Source: an uncultured Clostridia bacterium (GTDB lineage Bacteria > Bacillota > Clostridia > Oscillospirales > Ruminococcaceae). Taken from it: a stretch of 39,492 nt of DNA. Of this stretch, positions 10,058-30,330 are shown one piece after another. The notes under the pieces were generated by a model that worked only from the letters and a program-made list of their open reading frames with translations, was not told the DNA's origin and ran no database searches. Position 1 is the stretch's first letter. Each line of letters starts with the position of its first letter. The stretch is taken from contig CANPYR010000022.1 in the NCBI GenBank assembly GCA_947588805.1, forward strand, positions 1-39,492, written 5' to 3'. Made by a program: the position numbers and the translations under genes.

Positions 10058-10345
10058 GTTAGGGGACACGGCGGCGGGATTTGCGGGGAAGGGCGGGAAA
10101 ACATTGCCGGTTTTGTTTTCGCTCGACCGCCCTCGACAAAAACGACAGTCTCGGTTGTCTCACGGACAAAACTCGGCAAGTTCGGCGGGCGCAGTTGGTA
10201 GAGATTCCGCAGAAAAGCAGCGAATCCCGCCGCCGCTTGCCGCATTTTGAATCTGCATGAAATGATATTCAGGAGCAGCGAGTTATAGCCGAGCTCGCCC
10301 AACTTTCCTCCTGCGCAAAATGAAACTCAATGCAGCAAGCTGTAA
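10058..10345 (+). repeat. Dispersed fold-back repeat module B, copy B1
   Basis: Outer stem arms at 10071-10084 and 10220-10233; inner stem arms at 10104-10116 and 10166-10179. The outer stem carries a G-C pair at the position where B2 and B3 carry A-U. It lies in the 462-base gap between the ECF sigma start and the K+ channel end; no gene is seen there. There is no attached A module. Confidence 0.85.
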
Positions 10346-10364
10346 GCCTACAAATTCCCCAAGA

Positions 10365-10389
10365 TGAAAAGAGACGGCATACCGTGCCG
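10365..10389 (-). terminator. Weak candidate terminator of the K+ channel gene
   Basis: Minus-strand CGGCA-CGGTA-TGCCG hairpin (10375-10389) followed by TCTCTTTTC, 14 bases past the channel stop codon. The stem has only five pairs, so it is a weak call. Confidence 0.4.
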
Positions 10390-10403
10390 CCCCTAAATAT
10401 GCG

Positions 10404-11159
10404 TTATTCCCCACCCGTCTCTTCGCCGCCCTCATCCTTTTTCTCCTCCTCTATCTTTCTTAGCTCATCCATATACCCCGCCGTGATAATACCTGCCGGG
10501 AGGGCGACTATTGCTATTCCGAAAATCGAGGATACCATCGTAACTATTCTCCCGATTTCCGTCACGGGATAGATATCCCCGTACCCCATAGTCGTCAGTG
10601 AAACCGTCGCCCAGTACACTGCGTCAAAAAAGGAATTAAAGCTGTCAGGCTCGACGTTGAAAACTATAAGCGCTGAGATAATTATGTATCCTATCGCAAG
10701 AATCAGAACGCAGCCGAGAGGTTCGCGCTGTTTTTTGAAGATATTTGCTATTATCTGAGCGTTTTTGGAATATCTTACAAGCTTAAAGGAACGAAATACT
10801 CTGAGCGCGCGGAACATTCTTAAAACTCGCAGAATCTTGAAGCCGCGGTTTATCACCGTAACAGACGGAAGTATCGAGACAAGATCGACGATCGCCATCG
10901 GCGAAAAAGGGTATCTTAAAAAGGAGATAACGTGCCGTCCGGAAAATTTGAAGTCGGCAGTCGCCCATCTTAAAAGATAATCTATAATAAAAATTCCCGC
11001 GCAGATTGTATCCAAAATTTCAAAAGCTGCATTTGATTCTTTGAAGATAAGCGGGATAAGACTTGCTATAATGACTGCCATCATGAAAAGGTCGTAAACC
11101 GAGCTGGGCAGGTCTTGACCGTTTGAAGCGGAAATTATTTCGTATATTCTTTTTCGCAT
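10404..11159 (-). CDS. Voltage-gated potassium channel, six-TM type
   Basis: A 251-residue ion channel subunit. Segments S1-S3 lie in about residues 20-100. S4 (about 105-130) carries regularly spaced arginines and lysines (RGFKILRVLRMFRALRVFR), the voltage sensor. S5, the pore helix and the filter TTMGYGD (189-195) follow, then S6 (about 200-230) and a short charged tail. It resembles KvAP/Kch-type bacterial channels and would work as a membrane tetramer conducting K+. A GGAG ribosome site precedes the ATG, and a consensus sigma-A promoter lies 28 bases upstream. It is a single-gene unit. Confidence 0.94.
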   Translation of the reverse strand: MRKRIYEIISASNGQDLPSSVYDLFMMAVIIASLIPLIFKESNAAFEILDTICAGIFIIDYLLRWATADFKFSGRHVISFLRYPFSPMAIVDLVSILPSVTVINRGFKILRVLRMFRALRVFRSFKLVRYSKNAQIIANIFKKQREPLGCVLILAIGYIIISALIVFNVEPDSFNSFFDAVYWATVSLTTMGYGDIYPVTEIGRIVTMVSSIFGIAIVALPAGIITAGYMDELRKIEEEKKDEGGEETGGE

Positions 11160-11187
11160 TTTTTACTCCGTATGGGTTTTTTGTTTT

Positions 11188-11216
11188 ATTATACATAAAT
11201 TTGGCAAGTATGTCAA
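11188..11216 (-). promoter_or_regulatory. Consensus sigma-A promoter of the K+ channel gene
   Basis: Minus strand: -35 TTGACA (11211-11216), 17-base spacer, -10 TATAAT (11188-11193). Both boxes match the consensus at all six positions. Confidence 0.9.
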
Positions 11217-11378
11217 TAGGATATCTGGAAATCAAATCTGACCTGCTGACTGTACCCTACCGCGTTTATCCCCTCTGCGCGCCGATCCCCCACGCGCTGC
11301 TTTCGCTCCCAACAACCTTCTGCATATCTTCCCCTTTTCAGTCCCCACGGCTTTCCGACGTTCTTTCCATCTTAACTC

Positions 11379-11407
11379 TTGCATTTTCTCTCCCGCTATG
11401 TTATACT
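11379..11407 (+). promoter_or_regulatory. Sigma-A promoter of the PepSY lipoprotein gene
   Basis: -35 TTGCAT (11379-11384), 17-base spacer, -10 TATACT (11402-11407), 40 bases before the start codon. The TTGCATTT -35 is also used by the GH30 gene at 35941. Confidence 0.75.
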
Positions 11408-11447
11408 ATATTACACCAAATCCCATCCAAATAAAAGGAGACTAAAA

Positions 11448-12374
11448 ATGAAACTAAAAATAATCGCAATTATTTTGGCGGCGCTTATGCTTGCTTCATG
11501 CGGCGCAAAGCCGGAGGAAAATTCCGACGAACCATCGACGACAAAATCTACCGCCGCCGAGGAGCTTATATCCCCGGAACAGGCGGCTCAGATCGCGCTT
11601 GACGACGCGATAGCGACAGCTCCCGCCACCGTATCCGAAAAGCTTTCCGCTCTCACCGCTTCGGACGCGGAAACGGAAATGTCCGCGCTCAACGGGATCC
11701 CGAAATACGACGTAGAGATCGACTGCGGATACCTTGAATTAAAATACGAGATCGACAGTCAGAACGGCGCTATAAGAAGCTATAAGCGGCTTTTTGACTT
11801 CAACGCCGCCGCAGAAGCCGAGGGCGGGAACGTAACTCTTGAGGAAGCGGGAGACTACGCGGTTTGGTATCTCGATCTTGATAAAAACAGCGTCAGCGAG
11901 GTGAGCGGAGAGCTCGACGAGGATTTTCTGGCATACATCCTGACGATCAAGACCGCCGACGGCGATATTCGCTGCTGGGCGGACGAGTACACGGGCGTTA
12001 TGCAGCGCTCGACGAAGGACATAGGTCCCTACCGCGCCGAGGAGCTTTGCTATGAGCATCTTCTTGAGAATATTTCGGAGGACGCGATAGACGGCGTTAC
12101 AAATCTTTTGCTTGCGGGCGATATAGATCAGAGCACCGAAGCGGAGGGGATATCTTCGGAGCGGCAGTACAAAATCGAGCTTTGCGTCGGGGGATATGAT
12201 TACGAGTATACGGTGGACGGTCTCAGCGGGCTTATCCTGACTGCAAGCTGCAATCCAGACGACGACTATGAGGGCGAACCCGTAGGCGGCTTTGAGAATA
12301 ACGCGGAGATAGTCCAGCCGACGCTCCCGGACATGCTGAGCGAAGACTTTGTGATCGAAGGAGAAGGGGAATAG
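11448..12374 (+). CDS. Lipoprotein with PepSY-like domains
   Basis: A 308-residue lipoprotein; the ATG at 11448 is chosen because AAAGGAG lies 7 bases before it and a signal peptide with lipobox LASC (Cys19) follows at once. A longer frame from 11379 would begin inside the promoter. The mature part contains PepSY-like segments (SPEQAAQIALDDAI, then YDVEIDCGYLELKYEID; a second around residues 210-280 with YKIELCVGGYDYEYTVD). PepSY domains are small, often paired, extracytoplasmic domains of uncertain role, in some cases protease inhibitors. It has its own promoter and is followed at once by repeat copy B2. Confidence 0.85.
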   Translation: MKLKIIAIILAALMLASCGAKPEENSDEPSTTKSTAAEELISPEQAAQIALDDAIATAPATVSEKLSALTASDAETEMSALNGIPKYDVEIDCGYLELKYEIDSQNGAIRSYKRLFDFNAAAEAEGGNVTLEEAGDYAVWYLDLDKNSVSEVSGELDEDFLAYILTIKTADGDIRCWADEYTGVMQRSTKDIGPYRAEELCYEHLLENISEDAIDGVTNLLLAGDIDQSTEAEGISSERQYKIELCVGGYDYEYTVDGLSGLILTASCNPDDDYEGEPVGGFENNAEIVQPTLPDMLSEDFVIEGEGE

Positions 12375-12377
12375 GGG

Positions 12378-12743
12378 TCTTCCCTTTTGACAGCTTCTGC
12401 TGTCAAAACTGACTACGCTTGGGTGCAGATGAAAATGAAATTTAGAAGCAGAAACCCCGTGCGGGTGCGAGATTCGCGGGATAGGGAGGGAAAACATTGC
12501 CGGTTTTGTTCCCGTTCGACTGCCCTCAGCAAAGAGAACCGCTTCGGTTGTCTCACGGACAAAACTCGGCAAGTTTGGATGGCGCAGTCGGTAGTGATTC
12601 CGCAGTAAAGCAGCGAATCTCGCCGCCGCTTTATGCAAGCCTGCCTTTCGCAAAAATGAAAAACAGAAGCAGAAGACTGTAGCTTCCAGCCCACGCCATC
12701 CTCCCGCGCAAAATAAAAAAAGAAGCAGAAATTTACAGCTTCA
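12378..12743 (+). repeat. Dispersed fold-back repeat module B, copy B2
   Basis: Begins with the small GACAGC-TTCT-GCTGTC hairpin right after the lipoprotein stop. Outer stem arms: 12467-12477 and 12613-12623 (A-U at the variable position). Inner stem arms: 12497-12509 and 12559-12572. GAAGCAGAA motifs occur at both flanks. No A module precedes it. The rest of the gap to 12960 is A/T-rich with no gene seen. Confidence 0.85.
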
Positions 12744-12964
12744 TCATGCCAAGTCCCAAACCCGCGCAAATCAAAAATCACCGTGCAAAACTATCAGTTC
12801 GTCCATCCCCTCCCCCCCGCTCTAACGTTGACACCCTCACCGCAAATCTGTCTTCTAATCGCCATTTATTAAAACGTAAATTTTCATCAACAAAAATTGG
12901 CTAAAACGCCGATTATGCAAGTTGAAATATTATAATATATCAAAAAATCCGTAGTATTTTATCA

Positions 12965-12993
12965 TTGTATTTTATCGCTAAAAGGTGTAAAAT
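12965..12993 (+). promoter_or_regulatory. Candidate promoter of the surface protein gene
   Basis: -35 TTGTAT (12965-12970), 17-base spacer, -10 TAAAAT (12988-12993), 47 bases before the start. A second TATAAT at 12931 lacks a good -35. Confidence 0.55.
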
Positions 12994-13040
12994 TAAATCA
13001 GGTTAAAACCTAAATTCATTTTAATCAGGAGGATTTTACA

Positions 13041-13763
13041 ATGAAAAAAATCATTTCCGTTCTTGTGGCGGTAATGCTTGTCGCTGCTCTTTCAGTAAGC
13101 GCTTTCGCCGCAGAAGCAACCGTGACCGGTTCTTGGACATGCACCTTCACCGATAACGATTACGATTCCGGCGTTACTGCCGGCTCGCTCACCGGCTATC
13201 AGGGCGAAGTCGTTTCCGCTTGGGGCAACGATTATCCCGAGCTCGTTTCCCTTATTGAAACCGTAGCTCCTATCGCCAGCGTTTCCCATGTAGCCGTAAC
13301 AGTCAAGGCTTCCAATACCGACGACTGCTGGTCCACCAACCCGAAGATTGAAGTTGACCTCAACGAAAGAGGCGGCGAGCATATTGCTGACGCAGTACCC
13401 TTCGACGGCGATACCGCTACCTTCGAGTTCGACGTTCCCGCCGATACCACCGCTCTCGTTCTGGTTCCCTACGCTTTCAGCGCTGACGCCGGCGAAATCA
13501 GCTTCGAGATCTCTATGACTCTTACCGGCGATTTTGAAGCTCCCGAGACTGCTCCCGCAGCAGAGACCGAGACCGCTCCCGAAGCCGAAGCTGAAGCTCC
13601 CGCCGAAGCCCCTGCAGAAACTCCTGCCGAGACTCCCGCTGAGCCTGCTGCTGAAGCCGCCGCTCCCGCCGCTTCTGAATCCGCTCCTGCTACTGGCCTT
13701 GCGCTCGCAGTTATTCCTGCCGTGATCGCTCTCGGAGCCGCAGCTGTTTCCAAGAAGCACTGA
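13041..13763 (+). CDS. Small secreted surface protein with sortase-like C-terminal signal
   Basis: A 240-residue protein that I do not recognise as a named family. It has an N-terminal signal peptide (cleavage probably after SAFA, residue about 23), a compact beta-rich domain of about 150 residues (starting TVTGSWTCTFTDND), a Pro/Ala/Glu linker (about 170-210) and a C-terminus of PATG, a 20-residue hydrophobic segment and KKH. That end has the layout of a cell-wall sorting signal with a non-LPxTG motif. Strong GGAGG ribosome site and codon use suggest high expression. The following terminator marks it as a single-gene unit. Confidence 0.75.
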   Translation: MKKIISVLVAVMLVAALSVSAFAAEATVTGSWTCTFTDNDYDSGVTAGSLTGYQGEVVSAWGNDYPELVSLIETVAPIASVSHVAVTVKASNTDDCWSTNPKIEVDLNERGGEHIADAVPFDGDTATFEFDVPADTTALVLVPYAFSADAGEISFEISMTLTGDFEAPETAPAAETETAPEAEAEAPAEAPAETPAETPAEPAAEAAAPAASESAPATGLALAVIPAVIALGAAAVSKKH

Positions 13764-13804
13764 TTCGGAACCGCTTTAAGCGGACTCTGAAAAAATAAGA
13801 GTTT

Positions 13805-13835
13805 AAAGGCCATGTCCGAAAGGATGTGGCCTTTT
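13805..13835 (+). terminator. Terminator after the surface protein gene
   Basis: Twelve-base arms (AAGGCCATGTCC with GGATGTGGCCTT, one wobble) around a GAAA tetraloop, ending in TTTT. A smaller CCGCTTTAAGCGG hairpin precedes it. Confidence 0.9.
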
Positions 13836-13890
13836 GCGTGAGAGATTTGAGGGAGATATTTTTAATGTGCAGAAATTTTCAAAAAAACAC

Positions 13891-13919
13891 TTGACAAACG
13901 GAGTTTTATCTGGTATAAT
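13891..13919 (+). promoter_or_regulatory. Consensus promoter of tRNA-Val
   Basis: -35 TTGACA (13891-13896), 17-base spacer, -10 TATAAT (13914-13919), both perfect. It ends 15 bases before the tRNA. Confidence 0.92.
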
Positions 13920-13933
13920 TCAAATGTTGACGC

Positions 13934-14009
13934 GAGGGTATAGCTCAGCTGGTAGAGCACCTGCTTGACGTGCAGGGGGTCATAGGTTCGAGTCCTATTA
14001 TCCTCACCA
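13934..14009 (+). tRNA. tRNA-Val (anticodon GAC)
   Basis: A 76-base tRNA with encoded CCA. Acceptor arms GAGGGTA and TATCCTC pair with one G.U. The D arm is GCTC..GAGC. The anticodon stem CCTGC/GCAGG holds loop TTGACGT with anticodon GAC, reading GUC (and GUU). The T arm carries GGTTCGAGTCC. It has its own promoter and terminator, so it is a one-gene transcript. Confidence 0.97.
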
Positions 14010-14029
14010 ATATGGGGCGAAAGCCCGAA

Positions 14030-14067
14030 AATAAACCTGTAAACTGCGGTTTACGGGTTTATTTTTT
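14030..14067 (+). terminator. Terminator after tRNA-Val
   Basis: Fifteen-base arms (14030-14044 with 14049-14063, one wobble pair) around a TGCG loop, ending in a T-run. Confidence 0.9.
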
Positions 14068-14084
14068 GGCGGGGAATATAATTG

Positions 14085-14280
14085 GATGGTTGCAGTTGCA
14101 CCGGTTAAAAGCAGCGTGCTTGCGGAGAGATTCGCTGTTTTTGATGTAAGTTATAGCGACTGCGCTCGCCAGACTGATGAACTTTTGCTTGTGAGACAGC
14201 TGAGATTGTCGTTTAACAATGCGATTAAAATTCTTTGAGGTTGTGTGGGCGGGAACAAAACCGGAAATGTTTTCTACCCT
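14085..14280 (-). repeat. Decayed module B copy (B5)
   Basis: Matches the minus-strand B pattern in patches: GAGATTCGCTG, CGACTGCGC, GTGAGACAGC, GGGAACAAAACCGG and AATGTTTTCT appear in the right order with many changes between them. It also carries GCGATTAAAATTCTTTGA from the module A fold-back. Confidence 0.6.
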
Positions 14281-14330
14281 TTACCGCACATCCCGTCGCT
14301 TTACGCGTCCTTCCTTTGTCGCAAAAATAG

Positions 14331-14734
14331 AAGCAGAATTATTTTGAGCCCTCGCTCTGAGCTTACGCCGGAGCGGATGGGATTATGCTTTCTGCTTCTT
14401 TTTTTATTTTGCGCTGGAGGATGGCGTGGGCGGGAAGCTACAGCCTTCTGCTTCTGTTTTTCATTTTTGCTAAAGGCAGGCCTGCATAAAGCGGCGGCGA
14501 GATTCGCTACTTTACTGCGGAATTATTACCGACTGCTCCCCATCAAACTTGCCGGGTTTTGTCCGTGAGACAACCGAAGCGATACTGCTTGCTGAGGGCA
14601 GTCGAACGGGAACAAAACCGGCAATGTTTTCTGCCCGGCCCGCGAATCTCGCCGCCGCACCGGGGTTTCTGCTCCTGAATATCACTTTCATCTGCACCCA
14701 AGCGTAGTCTGTTTTGACAGCATTAGCTGTCAAA
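14331..14734 (-). repeat. Dispersed fold-back repeat module B, copy B3
   Basis: Outer stem arms 14494-14507 and 14642-14655 pair perfectly over 14 bases (A-U at the variable position). Inner stem arms are 14549-14562 and 14612-14624. It is joined to module A2 through the GACAGC-ATTA-GCTGTC hairpin, the same order as at A4-B4 in the opposite orientation. GAAGCAGAA motifs occur three times in its outer flank. Confidence 0.88.
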
Positions 14735-14737
14735 AAG

Positions 14738-14986
14738 GGAGACACCCGGCGAGTGTCTCCCCACGAAAAAACAGTCCGCAGGACTGTTTTTTCTCCCCGT
14801 CCTGCGCTCGCTAACGCTGGGGGTGTTTCGCGCCTGCGGGCGCGACTCGGTGGTCGTTGCGATTAAAACTCTTTGAAAGGCTCCTGTGGAGCCTTGAAAA
14901 GCAAGTTTTAACGCTACGATTTCAGCCATTTGGAATCCTGCGGCCTTTTGAGGAAAGGCCGGCGAAACCTTTTTAGTTCCCGCTCT
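14738..14986 (-). repeat. Dispersed repeat module A, copy A2 (full length, with insertion)
   Basis: Contains all module A hairpins plus the 58-nt fold-back around GGCTCC/GGAGCC. Compared with A1, about 36 extra bases lie after GTGTCTCCCC. They form a perfect AAAAAACAGTCC/GGACTGTTTTTT hairpin (14766-14792) bounded by a repeated CTCCCC. Confidence 0.85.
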
Positions 14987-15021
14987 CTTCCCCGCTTCTT
15001 ATGACTTCCGACTTTCTCATC

Positions 15022-15051
15022 AAAAAAGCCGCAGGGATCTCTCCCTGCGGC
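15022..15051 (-). terminator. Terminator of the oxaloacetate decarboxylase operon
   Basis: Minus strand: perfect 10-base arms GCCGCAGGGA/TCCCTGCGGC with a 4-base loop, followed by six T residues. It lies 17 bases after the oadA stop. Confidence 0.95.
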
Positions 15052-15067
15052 TTCATAAATTCATAAC

Positions 15068-16495
15068 TCAAATCCCGCTTGCGTCTACATAAATCGTCCT
15101 GACTCCGTTATTCTTCGGGCTTTCCTTGACCTCTTCCTTCGGAGCAAGTCTTGAAGCGAAAAATTTCGCCGCGACCTGCGGGAACAGCGCGTAGCTTAAT
15201 ACATCCTCCTCCGAACCGTTGAATCCCGGGACAGACTTGCACTCCTCGCGGTACTTGTCAAGCTCGGGCTCCAAAAGATCCGCAGGACGGCAGGTTATAA
15301 GCTCGCCGTCGCCGATCGCTTTCTTTCTGACCTCCTCGTTGACCTCGCCCGGAAGCCTTCCGTATTCTCCCCTTAAGAGGGCTTTGGATTCCTTGGTGAA
15401 GACCTTGTATCTCTCTCCGGACAAAACGTTTAAAACCGCCTGAGAGCCTACGATCTGTGAGGTCGGAGTTACGAGCGGGGGATATCCGAAGTCTTTTCTG
15501 ACATTCGGGACCTCCGCTAAAACCTCGTAGTATTTATCCTCGGCGTTGGCTTGCTTAAGCTGGCTGATAAGATTTGAAAGCATTCCTCCGGGGACCTGAT
15601 ACATAAGCGTTTTGGTATCTACGTTCAAGACCTTCGGGTCTAAGATACCTTCGGCTTTAAGCTTGTTTGCGACGTTTCTGAAGTGCGCGGCCACGTCCGA
15701 AAGAGCTGCAAGATCGAGCCCGGTATCTCTGTCCGTACCTGCGACGGTGGCGACGAGGGATTCCGTGGCGGGCTGAGAGGTGCCGTTTGCAAGCGGAGAA
15801 AGCGCCGTATCTACGATATCTACTCCGGCCTCTGCGGCTTTAAGATAAACCATGTCGCCGGTGCCGGTGGTGTTGTGAGTGTGAAGATGGATAGGGATCT
15901 TTACCGCGGCTTTGAGCTTTTTGACAAGGCTGGCAGCGTCATATGGAAGAAGAAGGTTCGCCATGTCTTTTATGCAGATGGTATCCGCGCCCATAGCTTC
16001 AAGCTCCTTAGCAAGATTAACAAAATACTCCTCGTTATGAACGGGGCTGGTGGTATAGCTGAGCGCGGCTTCGCAGATACCGCCGTATTTTTTCGTCGCG
16101 TCGATAGCGGCTTTGAGGTTTCTTGTATCGTTTAACGCGTCGAAGATTCTGATCACGTCGATACCGTTTTCGATAGATTTCTTAACGAACGCGTCGACGA
16201 CGTCGTCGGCGTAGTGCTTGTATCCGAGGATATTCTGACCGCGGAAAAGCATCTGAAGCTTGGTGTTCGGCATCGCTTTTTTGAGCGCTCTTAAACGCTC
16301 CCAAGGATCTTCGCCTAAAAATCTCATGCAGGAGTCAAAGGTAGCGCCGCCCCAGCATTCAAGCGACCAGTATCCGATTTTGTCAAGCCTTTCACAGGCG
16401 GGAAGCATATCCTCAAGGCGCATACGAGTCGCGGCTTGCGACTGGTGAGCGTCTCTCAGGATAGTATCTGTAATTTTCAAGGGATTTTTTGCCAT
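15068..16495 (-). CDS. oadA: Oxaloacetate decarboxylase alpha (carboxyltransferase) subunit
   Basis: A 475-residue 5S-type carboxyltransferase. The HMGL-like TIM barrel (about 1-270) begins ITDTILRDAHQS and has IRIFDALND, CIKDMA (catalytic Lys region) and HLHTHNTTG metal ligands. A conserved carboxylase domain (about 290-440) follows. It moves carboxyl from oxaloacetate to biotin on the carrier protein, releasing pyruvate. No biotinyl domain is fused at the C-terminus; that domain is a separate gene upstream. A GGAGG site lies before the ATG. It is the last gene of the operon oadG-bccP-oadB-oadA, separated from oadB by 208 bases. Confidence 0.93.
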   Translation of the reverse strand: MAKNPLKITDTILRDAHQSQAATRMRLEDMLPACERLDKIGYWSLECWGGATFDSCMRFLGEDPWERLRALKKAMPNTKLQMLFRGQNILGYKHYADDVVDAFVKKSIENGIDVIRIFDALNDTRNLKAAIDATKKYGGICEAALSYTTSPVHNEEYFVNLAKELEAMGADTICIKDMANLLLPYDAASLVKKLKAAVKIPIHLHTHNTTGTGDMVYLKAAEAGVDIVDTALSPLANGTSQPATESLVATVAGTDRDTGLDLAALSDVAAHFRNVANKLKAEGILDPKVLNVDTKTLMYQVPGGMLSNLISQLKQANAEDKYYEVLAEVPNVRKDFGYPPLVTPTSQIVGSQAVLNVLSGERYKVFTKESKALLRGEYGRLPGEVNEEVRKKAIGDGELITCRPADLLEPELDKYREECKSVPGFNGSEEDVLSYALFPQVAAKFFASRLAPKEEVKESPKNNGVRTIYVDASGI

Positions 16496-16703
16496 AATAT
16501 CCTCCTAATATTCAATTTGAAACCGACCAGATGAAAAGAACACGGAATTCAACGGCGGCTCTGCTAAAGGGAACCTTAAATGAGAGACAGGGGCGCTTGC
16601 AGGGCTTCTGCGGTTGCAGCACCCTTCGCTTTCAGAAAGTCTCCGCGCAAGCGCAGCCCGCACCGAAGCTTCCGAAATCAAGCGCCGCAGCCTTCTCAAA
16701 AAA
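16496..16703. other. Spacer between oadB and oadA
   Basis: Unusually long for the operon. It holds short G/C-rich pairings (for example CTGCAACCGCAG on the minus strand) but no gene, clear terminator or promoter that I can support. Confidence 0.4.
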
Positions 16704-17963: not shown

Positions 17964-17982
17964 TGTCGCACCTCTTATTCAA

Positions 17983-18333
17983 TTATTCAACAGTGCAGAG
18001 AAGATCGCCTGTAGCTACGGTCGAACCCTTCGAGACGGCGACGGAGGTGACTTTTCCGGCCTTCGGGGCCATGATCTCGTTCTCCATCTTCATAGCTTCA
18101 AGTATCATGAGCACTTCGCCCGACTTAACGGTCTGGCCGGCGATCACGTTTACCGAAAGGATGTTTCCGGGCATCGGGGCGGTGATCTTCTCGCCTGCGC
18201 CGGCGGCTGCGGGAGCGGCCTTGGGAGCGGCGGCAGTGGCGGGAGCGGATGTTTTCTTTACTTCGGAAGCCGAGATCTCTTCGATGGATACCTCGTATTC
18301 GGTCCCGTTTACATTAACGCGATAGTTTTTCAT
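17983..18333 (-). CDS. Biotin carboxyl carrier protein of the decarboxylase
   Basis: A 116-residue carrier: an N-terminal beta segment ([20 protein letters not shown]), an Ala/Pro linker (about 28-47) and a biotinyl domain with EAMKMEN, where Lys82 receives biotin. The start at 18333 is chosen because GGAGG lies 8 bases before this ATG; a longer frame from a TTG at 18348 would use the ribosome site itself as codons. It carries carboxyl groups from oadA to oadB. A separate carrier gene is common in Clostridia, as in GcdC or MmdC. Confidence 0.92.
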
Positions 18334-18354
18334 AGAATTTTCCTCCAAACAGAT

Positions 18355-18654: not shown

Positions 18655-18718
18655 AAAAATCCTCCTTACTTTTACGGACATCATCAAAAAATAAAAAACA
18701 ATGCCCAAATTAAAAACT

Positions 18719-22510: not shown

Positions 22511-22561
22511 ATAGGCAAGTTTAAAATTTACTCGGACTTACAAATACTTGGAGGAATTATT

Positions 22562-25435
22562 ATGAAGAAGAAAAAATCGCTCGCCATTGTCGCGGCCGCG
22601 GCTATATGCATAGGGATCTTTTCGGGGTGCTCGGGAGGAAGCGAAGAAAGAGCTTCCGAATCGGTCCCGGAGCCGGATAAGGTCATATACGTATCCCCAA
22701 GCGGAAGCGATACCGAGGGCGACGGAAGCGCGGCTTCGCCTTTTGCGACTATCCAAAGAGCGAAGGAAGAGGTAAGAAACGTAAAATCAAAGGACGGAGT
22801 GGCGGTAGAGATCGCGGACGGATTTTATCAGCTCAGCGAGACTCTGACGTTTGACGAAAACGATTCCGGGACCGAAAAAGCTCCGGTTATATACCGCGCG
22901 GCCGAGGGCGCTCACCCTATAATAAGCGGCGGGGAGATATTTGAGGGAGACTGGGAAATAGCGACGGAGGTAGACTGGCTCCCCGAGGGGCTCACCGCGT
23001 ATAAAGCGCGTCTTGAGCGCGATAAAAAGCTAAGAGCGATATATGTGAACGGCGTGCGGGCCTCGATGACCAGAAGAAGCGCGACTCCGAAATATTCCAC
23101 GGGATTTTATTTCATAACCGCAGGTCAGGCCGACTGGGCATGGATATCTTCTACAAACGATCTTAAGACCGGAAACGTCTTCCCGGCTTCGTTCAATCTT
23201 CCCGTAGATACTCCTAACCCGGAAAATATCGAGCTTGAATCCGGCTCCACCTGGGTTAAAGCGACAGTATGCGCGGAGTCCTTGGAGCTTACCGACGACG
23301 GCGATACGAAGGTCAATTTCCAGATGCCCTACGCGGCTATAGCGCAGAATTTGGGATGGAACACAAATTATAACCCCGAGGGCAAAAACGACGTTGTGAA
23401 CGTCTTTGAATGGCTCGACAGCGAGGGACAGTTTTACTTCGATCAGGCGGGTTCCACGCTTTATTACATCCCGCGCGAGGGAGAAGATATAAATACCGCT
23501 CAGGTGGTGATCCCGGAGCTTGAGAAGCTGATTGAGATCTCCGGCTCGGAGCCTATGAAAAAGTACGCGGAGAACATCATCTTCGACGGGCTCACCTTTG
23601 CGTACTCCGACTGGAATTTATACGAGCTTGACGGCTCCCACGGAAACGCCACCACTCAGGGCTGCACGGTATATACGAAATTTTCGGATATAATGTGGCA
23701 TAACGACCTCTACCGCGCTTTCGACGTAGCTCCCGCGGCGGTCCATCTGTCTTCGGCAAGAAACGTGGATTTCATAAACGGCGGGTTTGAATCGACGGGA
23801 TATCTCGGGATCCATCTTGAAAACGACGTGAACGACTGCGACGTGACGGGAAACTTCATCGGCTACACGGGAGGAGCCGGGATAGTGATCGGGCATTTGC
23901 AGCACATATACGAAAACGATACCGAAAAGCAGCGCGTATCCGAAACGAGCGCGGGGCCGGATAAGGAGAAATTCCCGTTCGGGACCGAGTCCGTTCCTAA
24001 AAACATAACGGTAAAGAACAACTATCTTTTAGAGAACTGCTATTTCTTCCCCGGAAATTCGCCTATAACTTCATTCTTCACCTATAATCTCACGGTTGAG
24101 CATAACTTCATCTATAAATGCTCCTACAGCGGGATGTCAATAGGCTGGGGTTGGTGCAACTTCGACGGCACCGACGGCGCGCAGCTTCCGGGACAGCCTA
24201 CGACGACTTCAAGATTCAACCACGTAAACTATAACCGCGTAGAAGAGATCTGCTCGGTCCTTCAGGACGCGGGAGGGATATATACCCTCGGCCAGCAAGG
24301 AAACGAGGACTGGTCGGAGAAGACCGAGATGACTTATAACTATATAAACTGTTTCAGAAAGCCCACAGCGGCTAACGGCTCGCGGATGGTAAACGGCTTC
24401 CACCCGGACGAGGGTTCGGCGTTTATAGAGTTTGATCATAACGTCGTGACTAATACTATAAGAAACGTGTACGAGCTTAACGACTGGATGAGAAAGCACG
24501 ACTGCATAGTTACAAACGGCTTCTCGAATACCGACAGGTCCGAGACCACCGCGCCTAACTGCACGCTTGAACAGTATGTGAACGCGGACTATATCTGGCC
24601 CGTGGAGGGGTACGAGGTGGTGTTATACTCCGGTCTTGAGGACGAATACGTGGGGATGGTATCCAAAGACGTGATGCCGGACGACTATTACGAGCTTGCT
24701 TCAAACGTTTCTATCGCCTGCTCGGATATGCTGCCAAGAAGAGGACTTCTCTCGGCGGACGATACCGTATGGCTCGCGCCTTCGGGAACGACGGAATTTT
24801 CGGAGAGCGGGACCGTAACCTGCGCCAAAGGAAACGAGAAGTCGATAAAGATTCCGGACGAGCCGGGAGAGTATAAATTATACATAGAATACGCGGACGG
24901 AAGGATCTCTAACGAGAGCACGTTTACCGTCTACGCGGGAGATACGGGTTCCGGGGCGAACGTAAGGGACGGAGCTTCATATACCGTATCCAATCAGAAG
25001 CCGCTCGTAATAAAGATCAAGGAAGGATATACGGCGAAGCTTGACGGAGAAAATATCTCGGACGGATACGAAATAGACGGAAGCCGAGCGGGAGAGCATG
25101 AGCTCACGCTCGCAGGTCCCGGCGGGGAGGAAAAAATAAGCTTCACCGCCGAAGTAACCGCCGCAAACAGGCTTCTGCCGGATAATATGTCGGTATCGCC
25201 CGGCGCGGAGATAGTTTTAAGCGAGACTCTGCCGGAGGGATATACTCTATGGATAGCGCCTTCGGGACTTTCGGCGTTTGATAAAAACGATCCCGCGCAG
25301 TCCTGTCTTGAAGCCGACGGGAAGAAAAATACCGTCAACGCCCCCGAGCAGGAGGGAGAATATATCATGACCGTCACAGATCCGGACGGAAAGATAGATT
25401 CTCAGTCCGACGCGCATTTAGAGGTAAAGGGTTAA
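22562..25435 (+). CDS. Secreted right-handed beta-helix lipoprotein, probable glycan-active enzyme
   Basis: A 957-residue lipoprotein (Cys23 after IFSG). The mature protein starts with YVSPSGSDTEGDGSAASPF, the entry strand found in many pectate-lyase-like beta-helix proteins. The helix runs to about residue 700 and contains WHNDLYRAFDVAP, ENDVNDCDVTGNFIGYTGG and SVLQDAGGIYTLGQQGN. This layout resembles GH141-type and related plant-glycan enzymes, but I cannot assign a family with certainty. The last 230 residues hold two similar modules (TVWLAPSGTTEF... and TLWIAPSGLSAF...) flanking a third beta domain, probably binding or spacer modules. It follows ddl by 51 bases with no visible terminator, and has a strong GGAGG site. 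Confidence 0.8.
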   Translation: MKKKKSLAIVAAAAICIGIFSGCSGGSEERASESVPEPDKVIYVSPSGSDTEGDGSAASPFATIQRAKEEVRNVKSKDGVAVEIADGFYQLSETLTFDENDSGTEKAPVIYRAAEGAHPIISGGEIFEGDWEIATEVDWLPEGLTAYKARLERDKKLRAIYVNGVRASMTRRSATPKYSTGFYFITAGQADWAWISSTNDLKTGNVFPASFNLPVDTPNPENIELESGSTWVKATVCAESLELTDDGDTKVNFQMPYAAIAQNLGWNTNYNPEGKNDVVNVFEWLDSEGQFYFDQAGSTLYYIPREGEDINTAQVVIPELEKLIEISGSEPMKKYAENIIFDGLTFAYSDWNLYELDGSHGNATTQGCTVYTKFSDIMWHNDLYRAFDVAPAAVHLSSARNVDFINGGFESTGYLGIHLENDVNDCDVTGNFIGYTGGAGIVIGHLQHIYENDTEKQRVSETSAGPDKEKFPFGTESVPKNITVKNNYLLENCYFFPGNSPITSFFTYNLTVEHNFIYKCSYSGMSIGWGWCNFDGTDGAQLPGQPTTTSRFNHVNYNRVEEICSVLQDAGGIYTLGQQGNEDWSEKTEMTYNYINCFRKPTAANGSRMVNGFHPDEGSAFIEFDHNVVTNTIRNVYELNDWMRKHDCIVTNGFSNTDRSETTAPNCTLEQYVNADYIWPVEGYEVVLYSGLEDEYVGMVSKDVMPDDYYELASNVSIACSDMLPRRGLLSADDTVWLAPSGTTEFSESGTVTCAKGNEKSIKIPDEPGEYKLYIEYADGRISNESTFTVYAGDTGSGANVRDGASYTVSNQKPLVIKIKEGYTAKLDGENISDGYEIDGSRAGEHELTLAGPGGEEKISFTAEVTAANRLLPDNMSVSPGAEIVLSETLPEGYTLWIAPSGLSAFDKNDPAQSCLEADGKKNTVNAPEQEGEYIMTVTDPDGKIDSQSDAHLEVKG

Positions 25436-25447
25436 AGCGATATAAAG

Positions 25448-25476
25448 ATCAGGTCTTTCGGGACCTGATTTTTTTG
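25448..25476 (+). terminator. Terminator after the beta-helix lipoprotein gene
   Basis: Eight-base arms ATCAGGTC/GACCTGAT with a short loop, then seven T residues. Confidence 0.92.
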
Positions 25477-25685
25477 GTTATTTTGGGAATTTGCGGGTAT
25501 AATAGGCTGTGAAAGCGGGTAAGAAGACCGAAAAATCTTTGAATCTACAAAAACAATCAACATGTTAATCGTCAAATATTCCGCTTTCTTTCATACAGTT
25601 TTCACATCAATAGGTTACTATTTAAGCATAGAAACAACGCGGCGCATACGGCTCGAACAGTTTACGGTTTTGGAGGTAAACACAA

Positions 25686-27500
25686 ATGGGTGAATTTGAT
25701 ATGCAAAATATAGACAGCGAAGGCGTCGGCGAGACAGAAAATACCGAAGAGAAAAAGAGCGAAGTCCCGGACGCGGAGCCTACGGAAAATAATACCGCAG
25801 AGAACGCGGAGAGTTTTGAAGTCAAGAAGGATGAAAATCAAGAAGCGGGTTATGAAGCCGCCGAGGGTAAGGCGGGAGAAAAAGAGACAGAAAATATAAG
25901 CGCCGCCCCCGAAGAAGAAAAAATTCCGGATATGTGGAGCGAGAACGTGACCGTTACCAAAGCCCCGCAGGAAAACGCCGGAGCGAATGAAAATCCGAAG
26001 GCAGCGGAGGTCATATGGCAGGCCGAGCCGCAAAACGCTCAGTTTATCCCGCCGCAGCAAGGAAACCCCAATCAGAACTTCCGTCAGTACGGCTCCCAGC
26101 CGAATAATTACAATAATAATTATAACTATAACTATAATTATTCTCAGCAGCAGTATCAGAATCCATACCGCCAGCCGTCGCAGGGATACTACAAGCCCCA
26201 GACCAACGAATACGTATACGCTCCGCAGCCGCCGCAGAAGAAAAAAGGCCGCGGAAAAGCGATACTTGCGGTTATAGTGGCGGTGCTTTCGGTATTTGTG
26301 ATATCGGTGGTTTCGATATCTGCGTACACTTATATAAACAGGACCGAGCGTGAGCTTAACGGAAGCGATAATATCCGTTCAAAGGTCCCGATAGAAGAGC
26401 ATCAGTTTACTAACAACGCCGAGGATGAGACGGTAGAGGATTCCGACGAGAATCTTCAGAACACGCTGGACGAGAACGCGGACGGCGAGGAGAAGGTAAA
26501 CGCAGGAAGAACCAAGCTGCGCGACTTCCCGACTCTTGAACAGCTCGCAACGCCCGACGACGCCATGAAGATCCCGGACATATACGATAAAGTCAGCCCG
26601 TCGGTGGTCGGGGTATCCGCAAAGGTTTCGCGCGGCACCCAGCTCGGCACAGGATTTATAATCAGCGAGGACGGATACATCTTAACCAACGCCCATGTTA
26701 TCGAGGGCGGCCAGACGGTTATGGTAGTAGACGGCGACATGAACGAATACGAAGCCGAAGTCATCGGCTCCGACTCTCAGTCGGATATAGCCGTTCTGAA
26801 GGTCGATCCCTCGGGTATGGATCTTACGCCGGTTGAATTCGGAAAATCGGGAGATTTAAGGATTGGAGAGCTTGCGATAGCGATCGGGAACCCTCTCGGA
26901 TTCGATCTGTACGGGACTATGACTACCGGGATAATCTCCGGACTCAACAGGACCGTAACGGTAGAAGACAACACTATGACGCTTTTACAGACAAGCGCGT
27001 CTATAAATAACGGAAACTCAGGCGGTCCGCTTATTAACGCCTACGGGCAGGTAATCGGGATCACCTCCGCAAAAATCGATTCGACATACGGGGAAAGTCT
27101 CGGGTTTGCGATACCGATAGACGAAGCGCTTCCGATAGTTAAGAATCTCGTCGAGTACGGGTATGTGATCGGAAGGCCGAGTATCGGGATATCCGGCAAG
27201 GATGTAACGGAAATCCTGTCGCTTTACTGGAACGTTCCGAGGGGAGTGCTCGTATACTCCGTAGTGGACGGCTCCGGCGCGCAGAAGGCCGGGATACAGC
27301 CCGAGGACGTTATAATCGGGATCGAAGGCGAAACAATAACGTCGATGAACGAGCTCAACGAGATCAAAAACAAGTTCAAGGTCGGCGATACGGTAACGCT
27401 TACGATATACAGGACGTCAATGAGCGACTGGGGAGCTTCAAGCGGAAAGAGCTTCGACGTTGAGGTAGTGCTTTCCGAAGCTTCTCCGGACCCGCAATAA
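25686..27500 (+). CDS. HtrA/DegP-type membrane-anchored serine protease
   Basis: A 604-residue protease with an unusually long cytoplasmic front. Residues 1-190 are acidic (1-110) and then Asn/Gln/Tyr/Pro-rich (about 120-185). A membrane segment (about 194-219) anchors it. The trypsin-like domain has the full triad: His337 (NAHVIEGG), Asp367 (SQSDIAVLKV) and Ser445 (NNGNSGGPLI). One PDZ domain (about 500-590, with GAQKAGIQPEDVIIGIEG) follows. Gram-positive HtrA proteins degrade or refold damaged exported proteins and are usually controlled by envelope-stress systems. GGAGG lies 9 bases before the ATG. The 250 bases upstream hold no promoter that I can place with confidence. Confidence 0.93.
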   Translation: MGEFDMQNIDSEGVGETENTEEKKSEVPDAEPTENNTAENAESFEVKKDENQEAGYEAAEGKAGEKETENISAAPEEEKIPDMWSENVTVTKAPQENAGANENPKAAEVIWQAEPQNAQFIPPQQGNPNQNFRQYGSQPNNYNNNYNYNYNYSQQQYQNPYRQPSQGYYKPQTNEYVYAPQPPQKKKGRGKAILAVIVAVLSVFVISVVSISAYTYINRTERELNGSDNIRSKVPIEEHQFTNNAEDETVEDSDENLQNTLDENADGEEKVNAGRTKLRDFPTLEQLATPDDAMKIPDIYDKVSPSVVGVSAKVSRGTQLGTGFIISEDGYILTNAHVIEGGQTVMVVDGDMNEYEAEVIGSDSQSDIAVLKVDPSGMDLTPVEFGKSGDLRIGELAIAIGNPLGFDLYGTMTTGIISGLNRTVTVEDNTMTLLQTSASINNGNSGGPLINAYGQVIGITSAKIDSTYGESLGFAIPIDEALPIVKNLVEYGYVIGRPSIGISGKDVTEILSLYWNVPRGVLVYSVVDGSGAQKAGIQPEDVIIGIEGETITSMNELNEIKNKFKVGDTVTLTIYRTSMSDWGASSGKSFDVEVVLSEASPDPQ

Positions 27501-27908
27501 TCCACGTTGATAAAAGGGACGGTAATACCGTTCCGGGGTCGGAGGGGGAGACCCTAATATCCCCCGTCTAAAATCTGCGCAATGATATTACACTAAGTCG
27601 GTATATTTTTCCGGTATCTTAATCCAGACATCTTCATTGCTTTTTCATATTTTTTCCCTTTCTATGCGCGATAAAAAGCGCAGGGTCCGACCCGGAAGGC
27701 AGAGCGAGTCTCTGTCTTCTGAGACTCGGGCTTCCAAGGAAGGCACAAGGAAAAAAGGAAGCTGCAAACGGTTGCGGCAAAACAAAGCCCTCTTCCAGCA
27801 TTTTTTAGTGCGCTGTTTTCATTTTTTCCCTCTCGGAAGGCAGTCGGTCGCTTGCGGCCGGCTGTTTTCCTTTGCGCGGGCGGAGAATAGAGAGGAAGAG
27901 AGGGGGGG
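27501..27908. other. Hairpin-rich non-coding stretch after the HtrA gene
   Basis: No gene is supported. Several hairpins follow one another: TGCGC/GCGCA near 27665-27682, GGGTCCGACCC near 27690, a perfect 8-base CGAGTCTC/GAGACTCG stem near 27707-27730 and a G/C stem near 27840-27865. It ends at the start of repeat A3. This could be a structured RNA or decayed repeat; no known RNA family was recognised. Confidence 0.45.
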
Positions 27909-28133
27909 ATTAACAAGGTTTCGCCGGCCTTTCCTAAAAGGCCGCAGGATTCCAAATGGCTGAAATCGTAGCGTTAAAACTTGCTTTTCAAGGCTCCGCA
28001 GGAGCCTTTCAAAGAGTTTTAATCGCAACGACCCCTGGCCGCGGCCCGCAGACCGCGAAACCTCTTAGCGTAAGCAAGCGCAGGACGGGGAGACGCTCGA
28101 CGAGCGTCTCCCCTTTTTGACAGCTCTGCTGTC
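27909..28133 (+). repeat. Dispersed repeat module A, copy A3 (full length)
   Basis: Order of parts: GGTTTCGCCGG block, GGCC hairpin, 58-nt fold-back 27974-28031 with GGCTCC-GCA-GGAGCC at its tip, AGCGTAAGCAAGCGCAGGACGGGG-type block, GAGACGCTC/GAGCGTCTC hairpin, and the GACAGC-TCT-GCTGTC hairpin (28119-28133). The sequence after it (to about 28250) has patches of module B such as GAAGCAGA and GGGATTCGCTG, so a B copy has probably decayed here. Confidence 0.85.
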
Positions 28134-28272
28134 AAAAATACTGTAGTTGGATGGCTATATATACAGCATGATAATTAGAAGCAGAGACTTGTGACTGCGG
28201 GATTCGCTGCCTCTCATGTAATCACTTCCAACTGCTCCCACCCTCTCCCGCCAATCCCCCGCCATATACAGC

Positions 28273-28314
28273 ATTCTGCGACCGTCTTCCCCTTAAGAAA
28301 GCCGGTCGCAGAAT
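28273..28314. terminator. Perfect 12-base inverted repeat, possible terminator
   Basis: Arms ATTCTGCGACCG (28273-28284) and CGGTCGCAGAAT (28303-28314) pair perfectly around an 18-base loop. It lies downstream of the DUF4349 gene and its small overlapping ORF. No T-run follows on the minus strand, so it may instead stabilise the 3' end. Confidence 0.5.
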
Positions 28315-28352
28315 AATCCAATATCTATATCTTTATTCCCCGCCCCGTATTT

Positions 28353-28430
28353 TTAACTTCCCCACGAAAGCTCGTCGCAAACCGCCGGATCCTTCCTCGC
28401 CCATTCCTCGGCGACTTCATCTCCCCTCAC
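28353..28430 (-). CDS. Possible 25-residue ORF overlapping the DUF4349 stop
   Basis: Starts at a GTG that overlaps the DUF4349 stop codon by four bases (GTGA), a classic coupled arrangement, and ends at TAA. The peptide reads VRGDEVAEEWARKDPAVC then DELSWGS: charged, amphipathic and protein-like in composition. GGAGAG lies about 12 bases before the GTG. It may be a real small protein, or a remnant of a longer C-terminus lost by frameshift. No homologue is recognised. Confidence 0.35.
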   Translation of the reverse strand: MRGDEVAEEWARKDPAVCDELSWGS

Positions 28431-29464
28431 TTTCCCGCATTCTCTCCGTCGTTCTGAGCCTGCTCTTTCGCGCGGCGGTACGCTTCAATCTTTTTCTCCT
28501 GCCTTTTGCGGCTCGCTCTGAGGATCAACACTATCGCCGTGACGATTATCGCGATAACTATCGCGTAAACCGCAAGATACGGAAGCGATACTATCACTGT
28601 CACAAAGAAGCTCTTAAGACCTTCGACGACGTTGTATACGCTCTCGGAAAAGCCGGTCTTTATCCTTTCGCCTACCGTCTTAGGGGCTTCGGGAGTGATC
28701 CTCGCGACCTCGTATATGTCAAGCTGCACCGTCGAGTAGCTCACTTTGTTCGCAAGAGTTTTAAGCTGGGACGTGTAGCTTTCGATCTGGTAGTTCACAT
28801 CCGTGAGATAGCTCTGGATCTGTAGGATCTCGTCTATCGTCTCCGCTTTATCCATCAGCGCCATGAAGCTGTCTCGCTCGGATTTAAGCGCCGAAAGACG
28901 GGCTTCTATGTCAACATACTGAAGCGTTACGTTTTCAATCGATTCGTTTGAAGATGTGACCGTGCCGAGCGTTCCGACCTCGCTTATAAAGCTGTCGTAT
29001 TTCTGCGACGGTATTCTTACGGTATAGTTCGCCGAGCGGTAGTTCACCGAGCCTTGGCAGGAGGAATTTTCGACATATCCTCCGTATGTAGCGACGGAAG
29101 CTTCGAGATCCCTTATGAACTTGTCAAAACCGAGCGTTTCAACCGAGAGAAAGCCGTTTTTGATGATCTTGTCCCCGGAATCCTCCGAAGAGGCTTCGGA
29201 CGAAGATTTTCCGGGATTCCCTACCGTATTCGTATTCGGATTCGGGGCGATAGGCTCTTCCGCCTCCGCCGGCATTTCCTCGACGGAGTCCCAGCCGTAA
29301 TCATAATCCAAGAATTCGTCGTAAGCGGCTTCTGGAGCTGCAGACTGAGCGAAGCCGTTCGCTGCGTAGTTTGAGGACTTATCAACGCCGCCGCAGGAAG
29401 AAAGCAGGGCGCAGATCAGTGTAAAGCTTGCGATTAGAGATAACAGTTTTCGGATATTTTTCAT
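28427..29464 (-). CDS. DUF4349 lipoprotein
   Basis: A 345-residue membrane lipoprotein. The signal peptide ends in LSSC (Cys24). A low-complexity acidic/Ser-rich part (about 30-95) leads into the DUF4349 domain (about 98-310), recognised from YTVRIPSQKYDSFISEVG, LGTVTSSNESIENVTLQYVD and the heptad-rich ARLSALKSERDSF...DVNYQIES coiled coil. A membrane segment (about 288-315) and a Lys/Glu-rich cytoplasmic tail end the protein. The family is common in Firmicutes and its function is unknown. AAAGGAG lies before the ATG; the promoter is at 29519-29546. Confidence 0.88.
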   Translation of the reverse strand: MKNIRKLLSLIASFTLICALLSSCGGVDKSSNYAANGFAQSAAPEAAYDEFLDYDYGWDSVEEMPAEAEEPIAPNPNTNTVGNPGKSSSEASSEDSGDKIIKNGFLSVETLGFDKFIRDLEASVATYGGYVENSSCQGSVNYRSANYTVRIPSQKYDSFISEVGTLGTVTSSNESIENVTLQYVDIEARLSALKSERDSFMALMDKAETIDEILQIQSYLTDVNYQIESYTSQLKTLANKVSYSTVQLDIYEVARITPEAPKTVGERIKTGFSESVYNVVEGLKSFFVTVIVSLPYLAVYAIVIAIIVTAIVLILRASRKRQEKKIEAYRRAKEQAQNDGENAGK

Positions 29465-29518
29465 TTTTTCTACTCCTTTCGTGGACGCGCTGAACTTGTC
29501 CGTGGGGTTATAAGTAAT

Positions 29519-29546
29519 ATTATACCGTCGGATTTTTGGAAATCAA
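29519..29546 (-). promoter_or_regulatory. Promoter of the DUF4349 gene
   Basis: Minus strand: -35 TTGATT (29541-29546), 16-base spacer, -10 TATAAT (29519-29524). Confidence 0.7.
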
Positions 29547-29672
29547 GAACAGAGCGGTTACAATTCGGTTAATATTTGGTAACGAGGAACGAGGGCGTTT
29601 GTATATAAAACGAAGTTGGAGGGGAAAAAGTTGCATGGGGAGAGGAAAAATTTTTGGGCGGGGGAGAGAGGG

Positions 29673-29834
29673 AATTAAAAAGGTTTCGTCGGCCTTTCCT
29701 CAAAAGGCCGCAGGTGTCCGGGGGCAGAAATCGCAACGACCACCTGGTCGCGCCCGCAGGCGCGAAACACCCCATAAGCGAAGCGTATCGCCAAAGAGGG
29801 GCCCGGGGAGACGCCGCAGGCTGTCTCCCCTTTT
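29673..29834 (+). repeat. Dispersed repeat module A, copy A4 (central fold-back deleted)
   Basis: Begins with the GGTTTCGTCGG block and GGCC hairpin, then passes straight to AAATCGCAACGACC, so the 58-nt fold-back of A2/A3 is missing. It ends with a GGAGACGCC/GTCTCCCC part and continues into module B4 through the GACAGC-TAAT-GCTGTC hairpin (29835-29850). Confidence 0.82.
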
Positions 29835-30330
29835 GACAGCTAATGCTGTCAAAACTGACCAACCGGGGGGTGCGCACAAAGTAAAAATAGCGGCAGAAAA
29901 CTATCGGTTCAATTTATGAAGCTTTATGACTGTAGAATACTAAAGTCAGAAGCAGAAGCCCCGTGCGGCGGCGGGATTCGCGGGGAAGGGCGGGAAAACA
30001 TTGCCGGTTTTGTTCCCGTTCGACCGCCCTCGACAAAAACGACAGTCTCGGTTGTCTCACGGACAAAACCCGGCAAGTTTGGTGGGCGCAGTCGGTAGTG
30101 ATTCCGCAGAAAAGCAGCGAATCTCGCCGCCGCTTATGCAAGCTTGCCTTTTGCAGAAAGCGAAAGATAGGAGTAGTAAGGCGTAGATTTAGTAAGCCCG
30201 GCCTTTCTACTGCACAAAATAAAAAAAGAAGCAGAAAGCCTAAGGTCAGTCTGCTTCGGCGTTAGCTCGGAGCTACGACTTAAATTTGCCTACAGCTTTC
30301 TGCTTCTGTTTTTCATTTTCATGACAGGAA
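29835..30330 (+). repeat. Dispersed fold-back repeat module B, copy B4
   Basis: Outer stem arms 29968-29981 and 30117-30130 (G.U at the variable position). Inner stem arms 30001-30013 and 30063-30076. The right flank holds an inverted repeat GAAGCAGAAAGC (30228-30239) / GCTTTCTGCTTC (30295-30306). With A4 it makes a complete A-B composite of about 650 bases. A further B fragment (GGCGGCGAGATTCGCGG) lies near 30395-30420. Confidence 0.88.

Follow-up and report, generated by a model that had tools for sequence, protein, structure and literature searches.

Module B and its outer palindrome

The window, a stretch of 39,492 nucleotides from an uncultured Clostridia bacterium of the Ruminococcaceae, is a single contig (CANPYR010000022.1) of the genome G000 (GCA_947588805.1; 2.0 Mb, 86% complete). 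It carries module B, a dispersed repeat with nested inverted repeats in which a GC-rich outer palindrome surrounds a smaller inner hairpin. On the evidence set out below, module B is probably a nest of small non-autonomous mobile hairpins that are recognised by their fold and have a working unit of 84 nt. The original prediction, made from the letters of the window, had described four copies (B1 to B4), each with an outer and an inner pair of arms, and all four are present with both pairs. The inner arms, TTGCCGGTTTTGT and ACAAAACYCGGCAA, are common to B1-B4.

Copy B1 (10068..10236, plus strand) has 17-nt outer arms at 10068-10084 and 10220-10236 and holds an inner hairpin of 83 nt (10100..10182, plus), which scores 71.3 bits with the covariance model R1 described below and has a fold z of -2.4. 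In B2 (12461..12629, plus; arms 12461-12477 and 12613-12629) the inner hairpin measures 85 nt (12492..12576, plus; 73.8 bits). Copy B3 (14491..14658, minus) is inverted relative to the other three, with arms at 14642-14658 and 14491-14507 and an 85-nt inner hairpin at 14545..14629 on the minus strand (75.7 bits). The best-scoring inner hairpin, again of 85 nt, is that of B4 (29996..30080, plus; 83.4 bits, fold z -4.1), whose outer palindrome spans 29965..30133 on the plus strand with arms at 29965-29981 and 30117-30133. The folding of B4 is more than chance: its RNA fold has an energy of -80.1 kcal/mol, where shuffled sequences average -62.6 (z -4.1); with DNA parameters the z is -4.2. A fifth, decayed copy is recognisable at 14122..14299 (minus) as two BLAST pieces with 70% and 82% identity to B4, and a fragment with the right part of the outer palindrome alone, also a BLAST piece, lies at 28197..28242 (minus). 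The intervals originally given for the four copies do contain the repeats but are too long, with flanking repeat modules included, and took no account of the inversion of B3; module B proper is about 170 bp. The 1-base differences reported between copies are likewise real, but the broken reading frames ascribed to them say little for copies that are intergenic.

A BLAST search of G000 with B1 returned 62 pieces. Chaining the pieces within the window and within stretches fetched around the matches gave 46 full or partial copies, of which 39 were kept for counts on the outer stem and seven, lacking one arm, were dropped; three of those kept (L036, L043 and L052:5932) are chains that extend into a neighbouring copy. 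Standard pairing holds in 33 or more of the 39 copies at each of 14 outer pairs out of 17, and in 30, 24 and 26 copies at the remaining three. At stem position 7, where compensatory change had been claimed, the four window copies read as predicted (G-C in B1, A-T in B2 and B3, G.T in B4). Over the 39 copies this position is A-T in 19, G-C in 16, G-T in 3 and A-C in 1. The change is real, but it mostly separates two subfamilies, one in which GAGATTCGC pairs with GCGAATCTC and one in which GGGATGAGC pairs with GCGAATCCC with two mismatches, and extra compensation in the outer stem is confined to a few copies (L034, L045:1045, L049, L052:2317, L062). For the inner element compensatory pairing is strong, as described below.

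The outer element was not found in the 13 other element-bearing congeners, bar one weak 40-base match in G017, nor in 3 further congeners; the outer palindrome looks species-specific. By eye, its right half (e.g. window 30086-30105, GGGCGCAGTCGGTAGTGATTC) resembles a tRNA D-arm; ARAGORN and Rfam report no tRNA there.

Distribution, length and fold of the inner hairpin

Relatives were compared in a set of 31 genomes of the genus, G000 included; every comparison is one between species and uses metagenome assemblies. A query with a window copy matches 12 of the 31 genomes (its own among them), and outside G000 nearly all matches fall within the inner part, one match in G020 extending further to the left. 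The flanks of the inner hairpin differ among the relatives' copies. With a relative's copy as query, all 14 genomes of one group match and none of the 17 others does. The OadA protein is 95-96% identical to that of the window inside this element-bearing group and 85-90% outside it, and the group is therefore probably a clade.

Among the relatives, BLAST found 80 copies, 78 of them with full flanks, 77 distinct and 35 non-redundant. Twenty-nine of the 35 were aligned for pairing. The six left out (L077, L145, L147, L156, L176, L198) include some with poor or shifted ends, and their omission flatters the 29-copy pairing figures somewhat. The covariance model R1, built from the 29 aligned copies and applied with a cut-off of E <= 0.001, gave 545 matches in 15 of the 31 genomes, with at most 146 candidates scored per genome, so that copies may be missed, and with a few copies possibly counted once per strand, as happened for 7 of 125 matches in one locus-level scan. 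G000 has 38 matches; its relatives have 1 (G017), 62 (G018), 26 (G019), 30 (G020), 63 (G021), 19 (G022), 18 (G023), 12 (G024), 48 (G025), 39 (G026), 104 (G027), 31 (G028) and 53 (G029), and G004 adds one; the other 16 genomes of the genus have none. G004 lies outside the element-bearing clade, in an otherwise element-free group, and its single match has an E of 4e-11. Beyond the genus, an RNA model run over 245 genomes of the order matched G000 alone; its filters were strict and it scored 18 candidates in each genome, so that distant relatives could be missed. BLAST over 297 genomes of the family matched G000, two congeners and one other genus, the last over 23 bases only. Of two sequence patterns searched in genome contigs, the first had no match and the second matched 28 stretches, all from metagenome-assembled genomes of uncultured Clostridia of isolate 'Lapin', a name that suggests a rabbit host for the element-bearing relatives.

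Two sites look as if they were shared between species. One hairpin copy has nearly identical flanks in three species (L192 in G000:C19, L075 in G025:C16, L172 in G020:C6); the cores of L192 and L075 are identical, while L172 is changed at paired positions with pairing kept. It is possibly an old, retained insertion. Two further copies (L166 in G018:C16 and L068 in G020:C75) occupy apparently the same site, directly upstream of a gene that by eye resembles a serine recombinase, and an open frame crosses the element.

A locus-level sample of 83 sources (82 loci and the window) gave 118 distinct elements, among them 91 distinct 84-mers, and 57 flank-nonredundant copies. The element is exactly 84 nt long in 97 of the 118. 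It consists of a 5-bp end stem followed by short helices and pyrimidine internal loops, the latter mostly unpaired (TC against TC or TT; CTC or TTC against TC). The sequence itself varies widely, the ungapped pairwise identity of the 91 84-mers having a median of 64% and a minimum of 23%, and yet across 27 pairs 2,356 of 2,457 cells (96%) hold standard pairs in this set, which was found with the structure model and hence leans towards its pairing. These pairs are nearly all Watson-Crick, with G.T in 28 of the 2,457 cells; A.C occurs in 13. In the 29 copies found by sequence alone, 96.8% of 812 cells are paired and 16 of 28 pairs show two-sided changes, in 110 cells, whereas slid controls reach at most 46.6% paired and 20 double-change cells. 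The ends occur in 38 combinations, 16 of them perfectly inverted types (ATGAA/TTCAT 24, GCAGA/TCTGC 20, ATGCA/TGCAT 11, TTACA/TGTAA 8, etc.). To the eye, copies combine recurrent versions of the lower stem, middle stem and tip in differing ways.

To take common descent into account, the 77 distinct BLAST-found copies (92 columns, 3,916 column pairs) were compared with a tree-aware null, in which the substitutions of a Fitch reconstruction were reassigned to other columns. Thirteen of the top 16 column pairs fall in the structure. Both versions of the null leave four structure pairs with E < 0.2, of which three belong to the end stem and the fourth to the tip. The wide alignment holds some significantly covarying pairs; their absence would have refuted the original prediction.

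Pairing of this kind could also be kept by mutation, if one arm of a quasi-palindrome is rewritten from the other during replication. Such templating would explain why whole end stems vary together and stay complementary, and why standard pairs are nearly all Watson-Crick. It should, on the other hand, erase mismatches, and the internal-loop columns 24/62, 25/61 and 6/79 form standard pairs in just 13, 8 and 15 of the 91 copies; the mismatches kept at 24/62 and 25/61 in particular argue against simple arm-to-arm copying. Nor does it fit a length of 84 nt in 97 of 118 elements. We consider templating very improbable as the explanation; it may add to stem turnover, but it leaves the conserved loops and the insertions described below unexplained.

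Boundaries, insertion into genes and nesting

The ends of the element are sharply defined. Complementarity stops there in 50 of the 57 flank-nonredundant copies. The base at -1 is A in 52 of the 57, and among positions -8 to -1 and +1 to +8 no other base is strongly conserved. No consistent target duplication was found in these copies (identical flanking k-mers in 12/57 for k=1 and in at most 2/57 for k=2 to 9), and none was seen at the compared insertion sites in SIR2-like, DUF4440 and MobV genes. These results bear on the possibility of an ordinary miniature inverted-repeat transposable element (MITE), which would derive by deletion from an insertion sequence with a DDE transposase. A MITE is suggested by the terminal inverted repeats, the large number of copies and the restriction to a sub-clade, whereas the missing target duplication speaks against it; moreover, the terminal repeats vary among copies of one genome, unlike ends that are read by sequence. 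An origin of this kind is, in our judgement, quite improbable.

Insertion into genes can be read against uninterrupted relatives. In G021, a SIR2-like gene (318 aa) has extra residues at a hairpin copy, and 14 congeneric genomes match on both sides of it; reckoned from coordinates, exactly 28 residues are missing in 12 of them and 27 in two (G002, G004). The closest relative is G017 (94-96% identical). When the DNA is aligned with that of seven relatives, the insertion measures 84 nt and no duplication accompanies it. The alignment with PDB entry 5a3a covers both sides of the insert and does not cross it. In G019, a gene for a DUF4440 lipoprotein contains an in-frame insertion of 84 nt that its 93%-identical counterpart in G027 lacks, and in G024 a MobV relaxase open reading frame (ORF; L305) contains one of the same kind relative to the MobV of G021. 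The N-terminus of this last gene does not align, so it may be truncated. The three in-frame insertions are read in different frames, one of them from the opposite strand.

ORFs of at least 90 aa span a copy in 47 of 117 cases, but most of these ORFs are probably spurious and were excluded from the count of gene insertions; Pfam, run on nine of the longer ones, and NCBIfam, run on seven, named the two MobV genes alone. As a separate observation, all six frames of the 84-nt elements are poor in stops, as if read-through were tolerated or favoured: per frame, 45 to 80 of the 91 copies are stop-free against 28-38% of letter shuffles, a descriptive figure given that the copies are related. By orientation, 24 of the 117 copies lie in co-directional gaps (13 sense, 11 antisense), 16 in convergent and 9 in divergent gaps, and the rest at contig ends or inside ORFs. 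Beside B3, the DNA downstream of the OadA gene was compared with that of 29 relatives (two with fewer than 300 bases); bar short pieces of neighbouring modules in three of them, it is unlike that of the window, and because it does not match, this site neither polarises nor refutes an insertion.

The balance of orientations matters for a second alternative, in which the hairpin is a functional RNA (a regulatory element, processing site or small RNA) under selection for its RNA fold and the copies form a paralogous RNA family. Strong covariation and conserved internal loops agree with it, as do the G.T intermediates, which outnumber A.C (28 vs 13), and the copy with nearly identical flanks in three species; this imbalance and this copy (L192/L075/L172) leave room for some RNA role. 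Covariation by itself, we caution, is no proof of a functional RNA when the repeat is mobile. The balanced orientation (13 vs 11) and the scarcity of G.T pairs (28/2,457) favour DNA over RNA as the substrate. Copies within coding sequences, in differing frames and on both strands, the lack of an Rfam match, and a copy number that runs from 1 to 104 among sister species also speak against a functional RNA, which we regard as unlikely. Where the original prediction had left the choice between selection on an RNA fold and a fold-back element spread as DNA, the independent inner element and its precise insertions, into genes among other places, favour the second.

The hairpins also enter one another. 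Sorted by motif, the 39 outer palindromes of G000 comprise 4 without an inner hairpin, 17 with one, 10 with a second unit inside it and 8 with a third unit too; in these last eight, the second units number one in 5 copies, two in 2 and three in 1. Of 16 second-level units read by script in G000, 11 are exactly 84 nt; the other five reach 152 nt owing to a third-level unit, which adds a net 68 nt. The second-level fold shares the geometry of the first-level hairpin. With default filters R1 matched the second-level unit at one place (L045 5154-5237) and missed it elsewhere; with filters off it scores 46-50 bits. The third-level unit is matched by R1 with a shorter tip. In relatives, elements abut head to tail (L302 1029-1112 / 1113-1196; L196 1267-1350 / 1351-1434). 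The four outer palindromes without an inner hairpin may serve as internal empty sites, though deletion could also explain them.

The intergenic DNA around module B looks like a patchwork of repeat modules. A second dispersed module of short hairpins occurs in the window at 14792-14996, 27889-28136, 1356-1497 and 29664-29773, and in two of these places the lower stem of the second-level hairpin, GCGTTAAAACTTGCTTTTC, recurs (14896-14914 minus, 27971-27989 plus) and continues differently. Further short modules recur in the flanks of module B, e.g. AGCTTTATGACTGTAGAATACTAAAGTCAGAAGCAGAAG (window 29920-29958 and several copies elsewhere in G000).

Probable mechanism and comparison with known systems

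Taken globally, these observations lead to the following proposal. An 84-nt hairpin would insert precisely and without duplicating its target, in intergenic DNA and sometimes in genes. In the species of the window, one 85-nt hairpin would have inserted itself into the loop of a GC-rich palindrome, after which the composite would have spread to about 40 places; later, a further 84-mer would have entered the loop of the first hairpin, and then a 68-nt relative that 84-mer. The machinery would recognise the folded single-stranded form and not the sequence. Recognition of the fold is most likely because the stems can be rewritten as long as they stay paired, while internal loops and length are fixed. 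Together, changeable stems, fixed loops and length, precise joints and the lack of target duplication are what one would expect of an enzyme, presumably acting in trans, that recognises a folded single strand, in the way proposed for TnpA-REP or integron integrases. Integron attC sites are hairpins with imperfect pairing: their stems vary, certain unpaired bases are conserved, and it is the folded single strand that is recognised. Unlike in attC sites, R boxes of the attC consensus were not seen by eye in the 38 end combinations, and some copies of the present hairpin interrupt genes.

Several points weigh against our interpretation. The excess of G.T over A.C would agree with some selection acting on one strand, also as RNA. 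Only the four structure pairs named above are individually at E < 0.2, most others not being individually significant, and the tree-aware test was a home-made one along the lines of R-scape, with two kinds of null and 60 alignments of each. Watson-Crick pairing fails at 31/55 in 27 of the 91 copies and at 32/54 in 26, where a second tip type (assigned by eye) occurs. Among the four intragenic copies with a usable homologue, one, near the 3' end of the MobV gene of G021 (L182), changes the frame; with this change and the possible truncation of L305, just two cases lie in clearly whole genes. The comparisons set metagenome assemblies of different species side by side, and the hairpin may or may not still be mobile today. 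Finally, no mobilising gene was identified, and the Y1 transposase family PF01797 was not found in G000, a genome 86% complete.

A Y1/HUH transposase was tried as the mobiliser and set aside, since PF01797 was not found in G000 and the copies whose flanks were read resemble IS200, with unrelated end hairpins of their own (by eye). The family is present in 7 of the 14 clade genomes against 1 of the 17 others, and at L200 (G023), L201 (G027) and L206 (G029) pieces resembling hairpin copies or their flanks adjoin IS200-type transposase genes; given both observations, such an enzyme may be the mobiliser. Searches for known families agree with the original prediction, which could name none: Rfam gave no family at gathering score for the window and nine loci bar tRNA, with two sub-threshold hits. 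A match to a known transposon end may exist all the same, as no database of such ends was searched. For a plasmid or phage origin, neither blastn against 'plasmids' and 'phages' nor a 27-base pattern against viral_contigs gave a match, in collections from which records near the genome of the window may be absent. No paper describing the element was found in a literature search that most subscription journals lay outside.

More tentatively, the system may be guided by shape, with an enzyme or RNA-protein complex that reads hairpin geometry and pyrimidine loops, and may represent a new fold-recognised class outside Rickettsia. If so, stems that are mostly rewritable, helical modules swapped between copies, and stacking inside or beside copies of their own kind would all follow, as would the addition of 28 codons to host proteins with the frame unbroken. 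To our knowledge, the means by which the Rickettsia palindromic elements (RPEs) spread are not known, and the spread of small palindromic repeats and their in-frame landing in genes is an open question that those elements raised. The present lineage offers many copies, a nearly element-free sister group, matched filled and empty sites, a dominant length and rich covariation. Two questions thereby become directly testable: which enzyme moves the hairpins, and whether fold or sequence is recognised.

As described in PMC10969869, RPEs are short palindromic repeats of about 150 bp, with ten families in Rickettsia conorii, that occur in many copies and in frame inside unrelated protein genes. The hairpin shares this character, with in-frame insertions in three unrelated protein genes (one possibly truncated) and a fourth copy that changes the frame. 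It differs from RPEs, as far as that description goes, in its length (84 nt in 97/118) and in that most copies are not in established genes. Further differences are the rewriting of stems from copy to copy and the way in which hairpins nest inside and abut one another. Modularity brings to mind the BOX elements of Streptococcus pneumoniae, which according to PMC3049150 are composites built of modules, hold internal units that vary in number, and fold into a stem-loop. Compared in architecture alone, module B is likewise a composite with variable internal units; in BOX, the tandem module boxB lies between boxA and boxC, whereas the internal unit of module B is also found by itself, outside the palindrome, in other species and holds further units.

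REP and REPIN hairpins are also many-copy and imperfect, as are ours, and it has been proposed that an enzyme acting on single strands (RAYT/TnpA-REP) mobilises them in trans. In PMC3733652, REPs measure 20-40 bp and fall into two super-families named for a GTAG or CGTC tag. Unlike these, the present element is 84 nt long and has no conserved flanking tetranucleotide, A at -1 standing alone (52/57), and G000 yielded no Y1 transposase. MITEs have the terminal inverted repeats in common with it (16 perfectly inverted types among 38) and not the target duplication. The hairpin thus departs from REPs in length and tag and from classical MITEs in target duplication, all of them defining features, and is best described as a small palindromic mobile repeat; whether or not it belongs among RPEs or REPs, in the best reading it would work as the RPEs or the REP hairpins do.

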